In this document: piece after piece, positions 16,048-32,402 of the stretch | Layout: each line of letters starts with the position of its first letter | Position numbering within the stretch: position 1 is the stretch's first letter | From: an uncultured Verrucomicrobiota bacterium | Lineage (GTDB): Bacteria; Verrucomicrobiota; Verrucomicrobiia; Limisphaerales; UBA9464 | DNA: 34,041 bases | Assembly: GCA_903842505.1 (NCBI GenBank) | Contig: CAIMMI010000298.1 | Coordinates: forward strand, 1 to 34,041 | Reading direction: 5' to 3' | Made by a program: the position numbers and the translations under genes | Notes under the pieces: generated by a model | Seen by the model: the letters and a program-made list of their open reading frames with translations, nothing else | Databases searched by the model: none | What the model was told of the DNA's origin: nothing

Positions 16048-16132
16048 CGTACTCGTACTCGTACTCAGCCCGCAGGGCGGTACTCGTACTCGTACTCGTA
16101 CTCGAGCCGAGTACCAGTACCAGTACGAGTAT
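16048..16132. repeat. (GTACTC)n element, copy 2
   Basis: Three GTACTC units, the same GCCC-GCA-GGGC hairpin, four GTACTC units and GAGCCGAG, then a degenerate GTACCAGTACCAGTACGAG run. It differs from copy 1 mainly by unit number. It lies in the divergent gap between the membrane protein gene (starting 15981) and the esterase gene (starting 16241), so it may overlap their promoters. Confidence 0.85.
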
Positions 16133-19698: not shown

Positions 19699-19788
19699 GC
19701 CCGCGCACCATCGAACCGATGGCTTCAGCCCAAAAGCGGTCCTCAAAGCCGCGAGGGCCGGGGCGAGTATTCTACAGCATCGTGGGAC

Positions 19789-19851
19789 GTAGGCCGCGTG
19801 CCCCCACGCGGCGTTTCGGGATCCGCGCCGGGTGAGGGCACCCGGCCTACA
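19789..19851 (+). repeat. Double-hairpin palindromic repeat, complete copy
   Basis: Outer arms GTAGGCC and GGCCTAC enclose two hairpins: CGCGTG-CCCC-CACGCG and CCGGGTG-AGGG-CACCCGG, joined by a 15-base linker. The same plan recurs at 32291-32353, 33025-33089 and 33101-33165 with different linkers. Confidence 0.85.
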
Positions 19852-19874
19852 AGTGGGGCTTCGGCGACGAGTTC

Positions 19875-19919
19875 TGTAGGACGCGTGCCCCCACGCGGCG
19901 TTTCATGGGTCTCGCCCCA
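19875..19919 (+). repeat. Double-hairpin repeat, partial copy
   Basis: Begins TGTAGGACGCGTGCCCCCAC with the first hairpin intact and then diverges after the linker; the second hairpin is absent. It lies 24 bases after the complete copy, upstream of the second esterase gene. Nothing else was seen in the gap 19699-20019. Confidence 0.7.
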
Positions 19920-20019
19920 CCCGCTTTCCGGGGCTGTACCCGGATGCGCCCTCATGAGCCCGCAGGAAGGAGGATTGCCAGAAGCACGCAGCCCACCTTG
20001 ACTGGTCTCACTTCGCCTC

Positions 20020-25089: not shown

Positions 25090-25265
25090 CCCTCTGCGCC
25101 TCGGCGCCTCTGCGGGAAAAACCTCCCCTCCCCAACTCAACAGGACGCCAACTGGACTCCCGCTGAGGCGCAGGGGTTTAGCCAATCGAAACCCTCTTCG
25201 CGTTCTTCGCGTTCCTCGCGGCTTCGCGCGAGGCTCTCTTCCCTACTTCGCGTCTTCGCGCGAAA
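25090..25265. repeat. TCGCGCGAAG-type repeat cluster overlapping the end of the RND gene
   Basis: CCTCTGCGCCTCGGCGCCTC near 25090, CCGCTGAGGCGCAGGGG near 25157 and a TTCGCGTTCTTCGCG run at 25196-25265. The last part covers the final codons of the pump gene, whose stop codon is at 25243-25245. A stretch at 25206-25234 differs from 21541-21569 at one of 29 positions. No gene is seen in the gap 25007-25242. Confidence 0.8.
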
Positions 25266-28200
25266 CCTTCTCCGCACCCCTTCTCCTCCATTCGCGGATC
25301 ATCAGGAACAGCACCGGCGTGACGATCAGGATGTGGAGCAGGCTGCTGATGCTCCCACCGATCACGGGCACGGCCAGCGGCTTCATCACCTCCGCCCCGG
25401 GACGCGTGCTCCACAGGATCGGCACGAGGCTCGCCACGGTCGTGGCGACGGTCATGAGCTTGGGTCGGAGCCGCAGGCGTGCGCCGGCCATCACGGCCGC
25501 GACCAACTCCGCGTGGTCGAGTTCGCGCCCGCGCTCCGCCCGGGCCTTCGCCACCGATTCCTCCAGGTACACCACCATCACGACACCCGTCTGGATCGCG
25601 ATGCCGAACAACGCGATGTAGCCAATCCACACCGCCACGCTGAACGGGTATCCATACCACGCCTGCAGGAACACCGATCCGCTCAACGCGAACGGCACCG
25701 CGAGGATCACGTGCGCCGCCTCGATCGCATCGTGATACGCGATGAACAGCAGCAGGAAGATCACCACCAACGACACCGGCACGATCATCCGCAACGTCTT
25801 GCCTGCGCGGATGAGGTCCTCGAACTCCCCGCTGTACTCCAGCACCACCCCCGTCGGCAGCCGCGGCTTCAGGTCCGAGTCCATGCGACGCTGCACTTCT
25901 TCCACGAATCCACCGAGATCGCGCCCCTGCACGTTCGCCTGCACGAACACCCGCAACCGCCCGTTCTCCGAAGCGATCTCGCTCGGTCCCAGCACACGCT
26001 TCACCGTGGCCACCTGACCGAGCGGCACCGTGCGCCCGCCCATGCCCGTCACCGGAAGGTCCGCCAACCGCTCGATGTCGTCCCGTGCCGACCGATGCAG
26101 CCGGACCTGAATGGGGAAGCGTTCGCGTCCTTCGATCAAGGTGCCCACGTTCGAACCGCCGATTCCGGTCTCCACCACTTCCATCACGTCGCGGACGTTC
26201 ACCCCGTATCGGCCGGCCGCCACGCGATCGACCTCGACCTCGACGTACGGCTTGCCCTGCACGCGGCTGGGTGCGACGCCCGAGGCCCCGGGCACGGTCC
26301 GCAACACCCGCTCAGCCTCGAAGGCCCAGTGCTGGAGGGCGTCGAGGTCGTCGCCCAGCAGCTTCACACCGAGCTGCGCGCGGATGCCCGTCGAGATCAT
26401 GAGCACGCGATTCTCGATCGGTTGCAGGAAGCCCGGCGCATAACCGGGGATCACCGAAAGCTTCTCCTGCAATTCGGCGATCAAGTCGTCCTTCGTCAGA
26501 CCCGCGCGCCATTGCGATCGCGGCTTCAACTCGATCGTCGTCTCGATCATCTCAATCGGCGCGGGGTCCGTCGGCGTCTCTGCCCGGCCCAGCTTCCCGG
26601 CCGCACTCACGACCTCGGGCACGCTGCGGATCACCCGATCCTGCCACGACAGGATCCGCTGGATCTCGGGCAACGACGTGCTGGGCAACAGCACGGGCAT
26701 GAAGAGCAGGGCGCCCTCGTCGAGAGGCGGCATGAACTCGCGTCCGAATCCGCCCAACCGCCGGGCGGCATCGTTCCAACCCGCCGACTTCATGCGGTCG
26801 AGCACGGGCTGCGGAAGCCCGAAGCCCACGGTCAAGGCAGACCCCAGGATCACGCCCGCCAAGCCCAGCACGGCGCCCCGATGCGACAAAGCCCAGCGCA
26901 ACACCGGCTCGTAGCCGTGCAGCATCCAACGCATGAGCCGATTGTCTTCCTCGCGATGGAACGGGCCCTTCACCAGGAACGAACACAGCACCGGCACCAC
27001 CGTCACGGCCAGCAGCGTGGCCGCCACGCAGGCGAACGTCTTCGTGTACGCCAGGGGGTGGAACAGCTTTCCCTCGCGCCCAGCCAGCGCGAACACCGGC
27101 AGGAACGCCAGGACGATGATCGCCATCGCGAAGAAGATCGGCCGCCCGACCTGCAACGCCGCCTCCCGCGTACAGGCCATCGTCTCCGATGCGCTCAATG
27201 GCCGGCCAGCCAATCGCTCCCGCTCCTCGCAATGCCGGATGACGTTTTCGGTCATCACGATTCCCGCATCCACGAGCACGCCGATCGCGATCGCGATTCC
27301 CGACAGCGACATGACGTTCGAGGTGATCCCGAATCCCTGCATCATCAGGAACGAGATCAGGATGCTGGCCGGCAGCGGCAACGTGACGATGAGGATGCTC
27401 CGGAAGTGGAACAGGAAGAGCACGTGCGCGAGCGTCACGAGCAGCACCTCCTCCACCAGCGCATCCCGCAACGTGGCCACCGTGCGCCCGATCAATTCAC
27501 TCCGGTCGTAGAACGCCCGGACGGTGACGCCCGGGGGCAGGCTTCCCTCGATCGACTTCAACCGCGCCTTCACCCGTTCGATCACCGCCATGGCGTTCTC
27601 GCCCGTCCGCATCACGACCACGCCGCCCACGACCTCGCGTCCGTCGACATCCAGCGCGCCGCGGCGGAAGTCACCCGTGACCTCGACGTGCGCCACGTCC
27701 TTGATCCGCACCGGCACGCCGTTCGTCTCCATCAGGACGATCTCTTCGAGGTCCCCGGCGCCCCGCACCAGCCCGACGCCGCGCAGCACGAACTCCATGC
27801 CGTTTTCCTCCACGGCCTTTCCGCCGACGTTAAGGTGGTTCTCCTGCACCGCGGCCACCACCCGCGACAACGGCAGCCCCGTCAACTTCAGCCGCAACGG
27901 ATCCACCTCGACCGAGTACTGCTTCACGAACCCGCCCACCGACGCGACCTCGGCCACGCCGGGCACGGACTGCAGTTGGTAACGCAGGAAGAAGTCCTGC
28001 ACCGCGCGCAACCGCCCCAGGTCGGTCAACGCTTCGACCCGGTTCGTGTCGACGTGCAGGTAGTACTGGTAGACCCAGCCCAGCCCGGTCGCGTCCGGCC
28101 CCAGCAACGGCGTCACACCGGAAGGCAACTGCGCCGCCAGCAACCCGAGCCGCTCGGACACGCGTTGCCGCGCCTCCAGCGCGGGAACCGCATCCTCGAA

Positions 28201-28488
28201 CACCACGGTCACCAACGAGAACCCGAACATCGACGTCGCCCGTACCGCACGCACGCCGCGCAAGCCCTGAAGGTTGACACTCAGCGGATACGTCACCTGG
28301 TCCTCGACCTCGCGCGGACTGCGGCCCATCCAGTCGGCGTAGACCATGACCTGGTTCTCCGACAGGTCCGGGATCGCATCCACCGGCGTGTCCTTCAACG
28401 CGCGCATCCCGAATGCGGCGACCAACAGCGCCCCGCACAACACGAGGAATCGGTTCGCCAGCGAACCTTCAATCAATCGACGGATCAT
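25243..28488 (-). CDS. cusA: CusA/CzcA-type heavy-metal efflux RND pump
   Basis: 1081 residues with twelve membrane segments in the RND arrangement and two large periplasmic loops. The N-terminus (MIRRLIEGSLANRFLVL, DAIPDLSENQVMVY, RSPREVEDQVTYPL) and AIGVLVDAGIVMTEN are those of heavy-metal efflux pumps; the latter resembles CusA (Cu+/Ag+) more than CzcA. The CusA copper-path Met in the RIDMLSTGIK region has a counterpart here in VLMISTGI. It pumps metal out of the periplasm and cytoplasm using protons. ATG 28488 overlaps the adaptor stop by ATGA. The last residues (EKVSREDAK) are encoded by a dispersed repeat. Confidence 0.93.
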   Translation of the reverse strand: MIRRLIEGSLANRFLVLCGALLVAAFGMRALKDTPVDAIPDLSENQVMVYADWMGRSPREVEDQVTYPLSVNLQGLRGVRAVRATSMFGFSLVTVVFEDAVPALEARQRVSERLGLLAAQLPSGVTPLLGPDATGLGWVYQYYLHVDTNRVEALTDLGRLRAVQDFFLRYQLQSVPGVAEVASVGGFVKQYSVEVDPLRLKLTGLPLSRVVAAVQENHLNVGGKAVEENGMEFVLRGVGLVRGAGDLEEIVLMETNGVPVRIKDVAHVEVTGDFRRGALDVDGREVVGGVVVMRTGENAMAVIERVKARLKSIEGSLPPGVTVRAFYDRSELIGRTVATLRDALVEEVLLVTLAHVLFLFHFRSILIVTLPLPASILISFLMMQGFGITSNVMSLSGIAIAIGVLVDAGIVMTENVIRHCEERERLAGRPLSASETMACTREAALQVGRPIFFAMAIIVLAFLPVFALAGREGKLFHPLAYTKTFACVAATLLAVTVVPVLCSFLVKGPFHREEDNRLMRWMLHGYEPVLRWALSHRGAVLGLAGVILGSALTVGFGLPQPVLDRMKSAGWNDAARRLGGFGREFMPPLDEGALLFMPVLLPSTSLPEIQRILSWQDRVIRSVPEVVSAAGKLGRAETPTDPAPIEMIETTIELKPRSQWRAGLTKDDLIAELQEKLSVIPGYAPGFLQPIENRVLMISTGIRAQLGVKLLGDDLDALQHWAFEAERVLRTVPGASGVAPSRVQGKPYVEVEVDRVAAGRYGVNVRDVMEVVETGIGGSNVGTLIEGRERFPIQVRLHRSARDDIERLADLPVTGMGGRTVPLGQVATVKRVLGPSEIASENGRLRVFVQANVQGRDLGGFVEEVQRRMDSDLKPRLPTGVVLEYSGEFEDLIRAGKTLRMIVPVSLVVIFLLLFIAYHDAIEAAHVILAVPFALSGSVFLQAWYGYPFSVAVWIGYIALFGIAIQTGVVMVVYLEESVAKARAERGRELDHAELVAAVMAGARLRLRPKLMTVATTVASLVPILWSTRPGAEVMKPLAVPVIGGSISSLLHILIVTPVLFLMIREWRRRGAEKVSREDAK

Positions 28489-30287
28489 GGGACCTCCGTT
28501 CCGCAATCGAGCATTTCCGCGCCGAACCACGGGTTCCGCAGCGGTCCGCCGAACTGCCACCAGACCGCCTTCACTGGCGCCCCGGGAAACGCCTTGGCCG
28601 TCATCGGACACCGGTAGACCTTCAGGTCACCGAATCCGTCCTGCTTCCGCGCGCCCAACACGACCGGCGTCCACGCCTCCACCAACCCGTGGAACATCTT
28701 CCGCGCTGTCGCCAGATCCCGCGCCTCCGGCAACTCCACCAGCATCTTCTCCGTGTAGCCGCCGACGTGAGGAGGCGTTCCCTCCTTGTAGGCGCCGCCG
28801 TCAGGAGGCGTTCCCTTTCCATGGCTGCCGACGTGAGCAGCCGCATTCGTCCCCGCCGCCCGCACTTCCGCCACCGCCTTCCCCCACTCGACCCGTGCCC
28901 GATTGAACCCCGCGAGATCATCCTTCGCCAACTCCCCCGCCACCCCCGCCAGCACCCGCATCAATTGTCCGCGGGCCGCATCGGGCTTCCCTTCTGGACG
29001 CTGGGAACTGGCAACTGGCAACTTCGCAGCGTAGTCGCCGACGTCAGGAGGCGCCATCTCCCCTGCCTTCAAACCTGAAACTGAAAACTCGGAACTCCCC
29101 CCCAACACCCCCGCGTTGACCACCACACGTTCCCCCGCTTCCAGCCCACCGACGACTTCCCACACCGCATCGCCGACACGACCCACACGGATCGTCCGCT
29201 CCTGATAGCTCCCGGCTCCAAGCTCCACCCACACCCGCGCCACGCCCCCGGGATTCAGCACCGCCGACCGCGGCACCACCAACACGGGTTCGCTCTCCAC
29301 GCGCACCCGCGCCTCGGCATACAACCGATGCCGGAACAGCCGGCCGCGTCCCTCGCCCTGCTCCGGGTTCGGGACCTCGACCCGGATCCGAGTGCTCCGC
29401 GTCATCATGTCGAGGTTCGGATCGATGAACGTGATCCGGTTCGTGAACAGCCGCCCGGGCAACGACGGCGTCGTCAGCTCCACGTTCTGCCCAACGCGCA
29501 GCCAGGGCAGATCGCGTTCGTAGACGTCGCCCTTGAACCACAGGGTCCCAAAGTCCGCGACCTCGAACATCGGGTCGCCCTCCTTCACCCATTGCCCCGC
29601 GTACACCATCCGCTTCACGACGGTGCCCGACATCGGCGAGAGCCACGGCAGCGTGCGTTGCTCCCCTCCAAAGCCCGATGGCAACGCCTTCACCTGCGCC
29701 TCGCCCAGACCCATCTGGCGTAACCGCAGCGCGGCCGCCGCCATCAAGGGACCCGTTTCGCCTCCTGCTGCCAGCGACACATACTCCCGCACCGCACCCA
29801 GCAACGGCGGGCTGTACAACGTCGCCAACTCCGTTCCCTCGCGGATCTCCACGCCTTCCGAAGCCACCGCCAGCGTCTCGATCCGCCCCTCGACATAAGC
29901 CGATACGATCCGATGTCTGGAATCATCATCATCCAACGTGCCCGCCAGCCGCAGCGTTTTCACCACGCGCCCGATCTCGACCGGTGCCGAGGCAATGCCC
30001 ACGGCTGTGATCGAATTGCTGCCCAACCGAAGCACGCCTTCGGCCGCATCAAAGCCCGCCTCGCCTTCGTAAACCGGCACCAGCTTCATGCCGCAGATCG
30101 TGCACAGGCCCGGCTCCGGCGACGTGATCCACGGATGCATCGGCGACTGATAGAACCGCACCTTGCGGGTGCCCGACGCCACAGCTGCGTCCGCGTGGAT
30201 ATGCCCGGATCGCCCGCGCCACCACCACCCGGTTCCCAGACCCGCGCCCACCAGCAACACCGCCAGAACTGCATTCATCGCTTTCAT
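28485..30287 (-). CDS. cusB: CusB-type RND periplasmic adaptor with extra metal-binding modules
   Basis: 600 residues from ATG 30287, which overlaps the outer-membrane factor stop by ATGA. An N-terminal membrane segment is at about 5-22. A heavy-metal-binding domain follows at about 44-72 (SPMHPW then CTICGMKLVPV). The membrane-fusion core runs from about 105 to 395. The C-terminal part (about 440-600) looks like DUF3347 with VYRCPM at 557-562 and FGAEMLDCG at 588-596, a second likely copper-binding site. In the C-terminal half, residues about 399-433 and 483-513 are encoded by dispersed repeats, including three tandem 11-residue units, all in frame. The core is intact, so it should still work. 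Confidence 0.9.
   Translation of the reverse strand: MKAMNAVLAVLLVGAGLGTGWWWRGRSGHIHADAAVASGTRKVRFYQSPMHPWITSPEPGLCTICGMKLVPVYEGEAGFDAAEGVLRLGSNSITAVGIASAPVEIGRVVKTLRLAGTLDDDDSRHRIVSAYVEGRIETLAVASEGVEIREGTELATLYSPPLLGAVREYVSLAAGGETGPLMAAAALRLRQMGLGEAQVKALPSGFGGEQRTLPWLSPMSGTVVKRMVYAGQWVKEGDPMFEVADFGTLWFKGDVYERDLPWLRVGQNVELTTPSLPGRLFTNRITFIDPNLDMMTRSTRIRVEVPNPEQGEGRGRLFRHRLYAEARVRVESEPVLVVPRSAVLNPGGVARVWVELGAGSYQERTIRVGRVGDAVWEVVGGLEAGERVVVNAGVLGGSSEFSVSGLKAGEMAPPDVGDYAAKLPVASSQRPEGKPDAARGQLMRVLAGVAGELAKDDLAGFNRARVEWGKAVAEVRAAGTNAAAHVGSHGKGTPPDGGAYKEGTPPHVGGYTEKMLVELPEARDLATARKMFHGLVEAWTPVVLGARKQDGFGDLKVYRCPMTAKAFPGAPVKAVWWQFGGPLRNPWFGAEMLDCGTEVP
28755..28853. repeat. 33-bp tandem repeat inside the adaptor gene
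   Basis: Three direct units of 33 bases at 28755, 28788 and 28821 share the word GCCGACGTGAGGAGGC with variations; a fourth lone copy is at 29031-29055. Each unit adds 11 residues in frame (such as GTPPHVGGYTE and GTPPDGGAYKE), inserted in the linker of the adaptor's DUF3347-like domain. Confidence 0.85.
28989..29093. repeat. In-frame mixed repeat block in the adaptor gene
   Basis: Contains the CTTCAAACCTGAAAC word at 29067-29081 (identical at 19217 and 32417), one GCCGACGT-type unit at 29031-29055, and an AACTGGCAACTGGCAAC stretch near 29007. All are read in frame and sit between the membrane-fusion core and the DUF3347-like part. Confidence 0.8.
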
Positions 30288-31699
30288 CGCTTCATCCCTC
30301 CTTCCTTCACCGCACCACCCACCAACTCCCGCACCGTTTCCAGGTCTTCGAGCCCGCAACACAGCAGCAGCTCGGACACCGCCATCCAGTACTCCGCCGT
30401 CGCACGGACCTCAGCCATTTCGGCCTCGATCCGCTGGCGTCGGACCTCCAACAAGTCCCGGAGTTCCCCACGGCCCGACGCCCACAATCCCTCCAACGAG
30501 TCCTGCAATCGCCGTGTCCGCGGCAGCACGACGTCGCGCATCAGCACCGCCTCGCGCCGCCCCGCGTCGATCTGCGTCACCAACCGATGCACCTCACGGC
30601 GCACCTGCAACCGCGCGTCCTCGGCCTGCGCCGCCGCCGACGCCATCCGCGCCCGATCGCGTTCCAGGTCCCGTCGATAGTTCGCCCGGTTGAACCACGG
30701 CACCGACATCGTCACCGTGAGCATCCCCTGCGCAGCCGTGCCGGTGGCCGAGTCATGGTACGACTGCACGCCCACCGCAAGGTCCGGACGTTGCGAGCGC
30801 CGCGTCACCTGCACCGCCGCCGAGGCCACGCCGATCTCCCGCTCGCGCCGCAGGACCTCCGGTTCCGCCCGCTCTGCAAACCGGACCAGCACCGGCCCGA
30901 ACGGCACGGCATCCGAGACCGGGGGGAGCGAGTAGGACGGGGAGTTGCCAGTCGCCAGTGACCAGTGGCCAGAGGGGGCCCCGCTTGAAACTCCCGTCCT
31001 TGAAACTTTCCCCTGCCCAACTCCCGATCTTGAAACTTGAAACTCCACCGCCAGCTCCGCATCGCGCCGGCGCGCGACGGCGTTGGTCCAGTCGAGGCGG
31101 CGTCGGTCGAGTTCGTTTTCCATGCGGAGCACCATCGCGGCCGGTTCGGTGCCGGAGGCCACCCGCGTCCGGCCGAGTCGTACCTGGGCTTCAAGCCACG
31201 CGACGTCCGCGGCGATCAATACGGCTTCCGATCGCGCCGCGGCCGCGATGAACAGCTTTACCGCCAGGTCCCGGCGCAACTCTGCGAACCGCGCCTCGAC
31301 CCGCACTCCCGCCACCACGGCATTCGAATCAGCCAGCGCCCGCGCCGCCTTCTCCTTACCCATCACGGGCAGCTTCTGTTGGACGCCGTAGTAGAGGTCG
31401 CCGTTCTCGCGGGCCATGTCGGCGTAGCGGTATAGGCCGCCGCCCAGCATCACGTCGGGGTCCGCCCACCGTCGCGTTCCCTCCGCGTTCAGGCGCTCGG
31501 CGCGAGAGGCGTCGGCCAACCCGCGCAATTCCGGATGCCGCTCGCGCATCTGCTCCGAGAGCCGCCGCACGAGATCCGCGGTCACGACTTCGGGCGGCGG
31601 TTCGGGGTCCGCCCGAACCGCGACGCAACACAACCAACCCGCCAACATCAACCAGGCGCGGTTCCGACCGCACCCGACACCACCAGATGAAAAGGACAT
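30284..31699 (-). CDS. cusC: CusC-type outer-membrane efflux factor (TolC family)
   Basis: 471 residues from ATG 31699, followed by a signal peptide (about 14-30, LMLAGWLCCVAVRA). Long helical repeats with QQKLPVMGKEKAA at 107-119 and the mirrored SVPWFNRANYRRDLER block are typical of the two halves of the outer-membrane efflux protein fold. It forms the outer-membrane exit duct for the pump. A short stretch between the halves (about residues 219-258) is encoded by dispersed repeats and contains GAPSGHWSLATGNSPSYS. The stop overlaps the adaptor start by ATGA. The upstream frame is open, but encodes Arg-rich shadow sequence and is not used. Confidence 0.88.
   Translation of the reverse strand: MSFSSGGVGCGRNRAWLMLAGWLCCVAVRADPEPPPEVVTADLVRRLSEQMRERHPELRGLADASRAERLNAEGTRRWADPDVMLGGGLYRYADMARENGDLYYGVQQKLPVMGKEKAARALADSNAVVAGVRVEARFAELRRDLAVKLFIAAAARSEAVLIAADVAWLEAQVRLGRTRVASGTEPAAMVLRMENELDRRRLDWTNAVARRRDAELAVEFQVSRSGVGQGKVSRTGVSSGAPSGHWSLATGNSPSYSLPPVSDAVPFGPVLVRFAERAEPEVLRREREIGVASAAVQVTRRSQRPDLAVGVQSYHDSATGTAAQGMLTVTMSVPWFNRANYRRDLERDRARMASAAAQAEDARLQVRREVHRLVTQIDAGRREAVLMRDVVLPRTRRLQDSLEGLWASGRGELRDLLEVRRQRIEAEMAEVRATAEYWMAVSELLLCCGLEDLETVRELVGGAVKEGGMKR
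30941..31046. repeat. In-frame repeat block in the outer-membrane factor gene
   Basis: GTTGCCAGTCGCCAGTGACC begins near 30943 and TTGAAACT-type words occur at about 30984, 31000 and 31030-31046. The block lies between the two homologous halves of the protein and keeps the reading frame. Confidence 0.8.
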
Positions 31700-32250: not shown

Positions 32251-32390
32251 CTTCGCCGCGTGGGGGCACGCGGCCTACAACCCGCAACCCTGTAGGCCGG
32301 GTGCCCTCACCCGGCGCTGCCCATGCTTCGCCGCGTGGGGCACGCGGCCTACAGCCCTCAACTCTGGAGGCCGGGTGCCCTCACCCGGGG
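32251..32390 (-). repeat. Double-hairpin palindromic repeats: one complete and two partial copies
   Basis: A complete copy at 32291-32353 is in the opposite orientation to that at 19789; partial copies flank it at 32251-32279 (one hairpin) and 32365-32390 (the other hairpin). The complete copy has the same linker (GAAGCATGGGCAGCG) as the copy at 33101-33165. Confidence 0.85.
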
Positions 32391-32402
32391 CGGCCCCTTG
32401 GG

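Follow-up and report, generated by a model that had tools for sequence, protein, structure and literature searches.

Two kinds of dispersed repeat lie in frame within linkers of efflux proteins from an uncultured Verrucomicrobiota bacterium

How do repeats that are scattered through a bacterial genome come to lie within the reading frames of an efflux operon, and are they spreading there? The question is raised by a window, i.e. a whole stretch of 34,041 nucleotides (contig CAIMMI010000298.1), for which the original prediction was that repeat words inserted in the genes of an efflux adaptor and an outer-membrane factor (OMF) keep the frame, spread actively and are tolerated by protein linkers, as with the palindromic elements of Rickettsia. 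We analysed the Verrucomicrobiota MAG that holds the window (G000; 5,212,368 bases or 5.2 Mb, 362 contigs, 95.6% complete) together with its near relatives, which are MAGs of Verrucomicrobiota as well, the closest being G006. One MAG deposited as Akkermansia muciniphila (CAMCFL010000052.1, L304) places in the window's genus, and its deposited name looks wrong. Genic shares were determined in a 1.05-Mb sample, a fifth of G000, by a codon-usage gene finder made for the purpose (coding fraction 0.876); the sampled contigs were taken from those with earlier matches, which possibly biases abundance and not the genic share. The genes and repeats of the operon are as follows.

25243-28611, minus strand: CusA-type pump gene
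28485..30287, minus strand: CusB/HlyD-type efflux adaptor gene with repeats in two linkers (Pfam HlyD_D23, E 2e-52; HMBD)
28749..28841, minus strand: adaptor linker 2, residues 483-513 (length between anchors, pLDDT)
28755..28778, plus strand: GTAG REP hairpin copy 1 (GTAGCCGCCGACGTGAGGAGGCGT), with minus-strand reading PPHVGGY in the adaptor
28788..28811, plus strand: GTAG REP hairpin copy 2, in tandem at 33 bp
28821..28844, plus strand: third REP copy of the tandem array, degenerate; a single unit here in G006
28986..29108, minus strand: adaptor linker 1, residues 394-434, consisting of heptamers, REP and heptamers (pLDDT, alignment)
29003..29023, plus strand: heptamer tract (GGGAACT/GGCAACT), with minus-strand reading LPVASSQ
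29031..29054, plus strand: GTAG REP hairpin (GTAGTCGCCGACGTCAGGAGGCGC), not in G006
29067..29096, plus strand: heptamer tract (TTTCAGG type), with minus-strand reading SEFSVSGLK
30284..31648, minus strand: OMF gene (OEP/TolC-type) with one repeat insert (Pfam OEP, E 9.5e-25)
30929..31045, minus strand: OMF linker insert, residues about 202-240, with heptamer tracts FQVSR...KVSRTG and GHWSLATGN (orthologue length, pLDDT)

All the words named in the original prediction were located at their coordinates, and genome-wide they lie far above reversed controls. Across G000, 14 exact copies of CTTCAAACCTGAAAC and 48 copies of ACTGGCAACTGGCAACT were counted versus 0 for each reversed control, and the core of the 33-bp unit, GCCGMCGTSAGGAGGCG, occurs 191 times at ≤1 mismatch versus 3 times when reversed; this core is also the commonest 14-mer of the 1.05-Mb sample, with the TTGAAAC words closely after. 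Two seeming in-gene matches of the core (C304:36323 and C351:49534) were discarded, being without the GTAG hairpin. The words, which had been treated as one group, are thus dispersed and strongly over-represented as proposed, but they belong to two unrelated kinds, namely a hairpin REP and 7-bp repeats.

Reading all copies of the 33-bp unit with their surroundings revealed that it holds a 24-nt element starting with GTAG; the unit, present in the window as three tandem copies (starts 28755, 28788 and, degenerate, about 28821) and one at 29031, is a GTAG-headed REP element. The REP pattern GTAGCNGNCGANGTNANGAGGC yielded 516 copies in G000 versus 3 for the reversed control, and 153 versus 0 in the sample. 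Each of the four positions of the GTAG tag at one REP end is kept in 150-152 of these 153 copies, as counted with a search pattern that itself contained GTAG and allowed 2 mismatches anywhere. Folding of single copies was in most cases no better than that of shuffles, so the hairpin rests on covariation: stem pair 12-17 is CG in 109, GC in 38 and AT in 1 of the 153 copies (97% paired versus 60% shuffled), pair 6-23 is CG in 89, AT in 35 and TA in 10 (88% versus 48%), and pair 9-20 is CG in 141 and GC in 9. These three pairs and the weaker 5-24 came out above 1000 of 1000 column shuffles, and covariation was found also at positions that the search pattern left open. Positions 10/19 and 11/18 form a near-invariant tandem G·A mismatch, and the loop is GTNA. 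Besides tandem arrays, the sample contains 35 head-to-head pairs, 2-13 bp apart throughout, and 32 tail-to-tail pairs. Another class of GTAG REP, GTAGGCCGSGTGCCCYCACSCGGC, which forms a perfect and strong hairpin (about -11 kcal/mol), was seen in inverted pairs at window positions 19772-19940, 32251-32396 and 33025-33166; its two arm types have 22 and 19 loci in the sample, nearly all intergenic.

The TTGAAAC/TTTCAAG and GTTGCCA/TGGCAAC words are 7-bp repeats, dispersed in tandem units. Adjacent units gave 323 matches in the sample versus 7 with reversed words, the word list having been picked from the same data. One heptamer word is distributed patchily across the genus, with counts of 191 in G000, 141 in G004, 48 in G002, 23 in G006 and 0-2 in five others. 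Since 7 is not divisible by 3, (TTTCAAG)n has the same state in all three frames: it is open in one direction, where it reads FQVSSFK, and stopped in the opposite one; (TGGCAAC)n is open in both directions. The two kinds of repeat are found together: in 27 of 52 intergenic clusters, heptamers occur at ≤50 bp from a REP, a number reached in 0 of 1000 null trials (10.0 ± 2.8). A further dispersed family, GTGGGGCGAGTGTC / GTGGGGCGAGACTC, has 83 loci in the G000 sample (e.g. near C146:6885 and C8:5636), avoids REPs and, in 47 of 80 cases against a null of 12, lies ≤50 bp from heptamers. GTACTC/GAGTAC hexamer repeats were noticed at window positions 16080-16104 and around; they have 18 sample loci, all intergenic, and give EYEYEY or VRVRV in spurious frames.

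Placement relative to genes sets the efflux operon apart. Outside genes were 138 of the 153 sampled REPs, and the heptamer loci comprised 118 outside genes, 9 at edges and 8 inside. Since about 90% of the loci of both kinds are intergenic though 87% of random 20-bp windows of the same sample fall inside genes, the copies in the efflux operon are exceptions; with three of its linkers carrying repeats, the operon stands out as exceptional in the fifth of the genome that was sampled. The REPs are enriched between convergent genes and rare between divergent ones (2 of 49 classified), and several REPs and heptamers scored inside genes sit at gene ends. At G000:C80:17854-19380, three REPs (VAADVRR) lie at the 5′ end of a gene before an apparent signal peptide, where the start is possibly mis-called; the G006 gene has one copy.

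Within the operon, open frames run through every REP unit and heptamer tract of the adaptor and OMF genes, the OMF tracts lying within 30942-31044, and ascertainment accounts for part of this in-frame retention, as copies breaking the frame would escape gene calling. The repeats lie in linkers, as had been expected, and these are of low predicted order: in the AlphaFold models, pLDDT is <50 over adaptor residues 394-434 and 483-506 and 46-75 across the OMF insert, whereas it is >85 for most of the remainder of both proteins. The dN/dS between G000 and G006 outside the inserts was 0.105 for the adaptor, 0.096 for the OMF and 0.054 for the pump; it is low on both flanks of each insert, and reaches 0.33 and 0.64 inside the insert ranges. 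The flanking dN/dS of ~0.1 and the low predicted order suggest that functional proteins read through the repeats, and support, without proving, translation through them and their tolerance by linkers. Linker tolerance is accordingly supported for these two genes, both under purifying selection, but is the exception in a genome where most repeat loci avoid genes.

Alignment with orthologues revealed that the repeats are absent or different there, i.e. the efflux-operon repeats are lineage-specific. Length comparison bore out insertion for two of the three linkers: between fixed anchors, the OMF linker has 65 residues in G000 and 41-42 in 21 of 21 aligned relatives, and adaptor linker 2 has 63 residues versus at most 47 in 26 orthologues. 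Adaptor linker 2 carries one REP unit in G006 versus three in G000, and is there 22 residues (66 bp) shorter. Adaptor linker 1, in contrast, with 61 residues in G000, is inside the orthologue range (median 58), so the repeats have replaced linker sequence and were not simply added. Both of its heptamer tracts are common to G000 and G006, the REP between them is missing in G006, and a DAQ motif at the linker start, nearly invariant elsewhere, is lost in both genomes.

Different repeats were found at the same sites in the sister species. The OMF linker of G006 holds a longer, different insert of heptamers around the palindromes GGCGATGTCCTCATCGCC and GGCGACGAGGACGTCGCC, the latter of which has 726 copies in G006, 20 in G000 and 0-6 in other relatives, and so represents a recent burst. 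In a DEAH (HrpB-like) helicase on contig C304, G000 has a REP, read ASLLTSAAT, at the point where G006 has heptamers (FPVASAQFPV); the linker varies in length among the other orthologues, none of which has a comparable repeat. REP arrays at two further loci differ as 3 versus 1 and 4 versus 2 copies (G000 versus G006). These differences in presence and copy number, together with the lineage-specific bursts, lend less direct support to a recent spread, the comparison of sites having covered one 20-kb region and 30 G006 REP loci, with a handful of informative sites.

Hairpins of the GTAG REP type are substrates of HUH/Y1 transposases in other bacteria. Only two PF01797 (Y1) genes, with open frames of 359 and 379 codons, were found in G000. 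The Y1 features of the two sister genomes are as follows.

G000:C116:13269-13601: Y1-domain protein L165, flanked by TGGGGTCAGTCCC-type repeats
G000:C21:34861-35187: Y1-domain protein L166
G006:C254, positions 376-745: Y1 transposase gene (locus L199), abutted by one palindrome pair of the GGCGACGAGGACGTCGCC burst type

No copy of the GTAG REP of the 33-bp unit was seen beside the two Y1 genes of G000, the surroundings of the second having been checked in part, and none flanked the ~50 Y1 loci of relatives; at these loci, a RAYT flanked by this REP was thus looked for and not found. The enzyme may have been lost, have diverged or be absent from the fragmented assembly. The search thus yielded no transposase to demonstrate the active spread originally proposed.

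Given the few orthologous sites open to comparison, the best explanation, which we hold to be probably right, is that two dispersed kinds of repeat, purged from coding DNA, survive in frame in flexible linkers. REPs and heptamers would disperse through the genome and gather between and downstream of genes, coding DNA being normally purged of both; a genic copy would survive only if it landed in a flexible linker and its net length were a multiple of three. The adaptor, the OMF and the DEAH helicase would be the surviving cases, with translation presumably running through the repeats. The REPs may have been seeded beside or inside heptamer tracts and then have grown locally into tandem arrays by slippage or recombination, and because the array step is 33 bp, such growth would be neutral to the frame. 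Transposition may be catalysed by a RAYT-like enzyme, as with REPs elsewhere, and the inserts would bring no benefit to the protein. A more tentative extension is that heptamer tracts serve as landing sites for unrelated hairpins, certain linkers being recurrent hot spots that heptamers enter first and that different REP families then reach independently in each sister species; if true, working proteins would have the same linkers rewritten over and over by mobile repeats.

Spread without transposition, in which similar tracts undergo ectopic recombination or gene conversion and arrays arise by replication slippage, is an unlikely though serious alternative. The empty search for a cognate transposase speaks for it, array-specific periods of 33-79 bp and the copy-number changes fit slippage, and heptamers are tandem units prone to it. 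However, ~500 hairpins with conserved GTAG and compensatory stem changes suggest a recognised substrate, and the REP of adaptor linker 1 is a gain in G000 or a loss in G006, which goes beyond a change in copy number. A selected role for the inserts, either as mRNA hairpins tuning adaptor-to-pump ratios or as longer linkers aiding the efflux complex, appears improbable: dN/dS rises inside the inserts from about 0.1 outside, the same sites hold different inserts in G006, and other relatives miss them, against which stand the several inserts in one operon and the possibility that REPs elsewhere are RNA elements (PMC3733652). That low-complexity linkers drifted toward these words by chance, or that the MAG assembly is chimeric, is scarcely credible: adaptor linker 1 is indeed variable and A/P/S-rich throughout orthologues, but the reversed-pattern controls are near zero, the heptamer inserts are present also in the independent MAG G006, and the flanking sequences show both colinearity and purifying selection.

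The survival of dispersed repeats in linkers, as we read this locus, has precedents. GTAG REPs in frame inside genes have been published already, with Opitutus terrae, of the Verrucomicrobia, the richest and RNA helicases included (PMC3733652), so the present case belongs to a known kind, and adds to the lineages with REPs inserted in frame an uncultured one of the Verrucomicrobiota, where REPs are linked to heptamers. Like the surveyed GTAG REPs, those of O. terrae among them, ours have a GTAG head, a short imperfect hairpin, stem sub-families with compensatory changes and head-to-head dimers, and are mostly intergenic near gene 3′ ends with some in frame within genes; O. terrae shares the phylum and the RNA helicases, the likeness being one of described traits, not of sequence (PMC3733652). 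Unlike the surveyed REPs, ours are tied to heptamers and no flanking RAYT was found, an association that is frequent and not universal among GTAG REPs (PMC3733652). With E. coli REPs and TnpA-REP group 2, they share GTAG and a hairpin broken by two conserved mismatches; the paired G·A mismatches are reminiscent of the bulge in E. coli REPs, although here they form a tandem G·A motif with a GTNA loop (PMC8266576). The suggested kinship with Rickettsia palindromic elements found no support in that form: both are short palindromes in frame within otherwise normal protein genes, but phylum and sequence differ, with GTAG here and not the CGTC class of RPE-4 and RPE-6 (PMC3733652). The heptamers resemble those of Xanthomonas and Nostoc as genome-dispersed 7-bp tandem units, but differ in unit sequence and phylum, and the TTTCAAG form is not of the G-quadruplex type (PMC4692102).

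What is novel may be the co-location of REPs and heptamers, and also that different families of repeat have repeatedly occupied the same linkers in sister species. Three shared linkers hold different dispersed repeats in the two species while the adjoining domains are still under selection, which makes them a natural experiment in how bacterial proteins gain new linker sequence. To our knowledge, the pairing of REPs with heptamers is otherwise known only from the small dispersed repeats of cyanobacteria. Mazel in 1990 and Elhai in 2008 reportedly described STRR repeats of cyanobacteria and small dispersed repeats that lie embedded in heptamers, and the repeats of the present genome are, like those, small palindromic elements beside heptamers.
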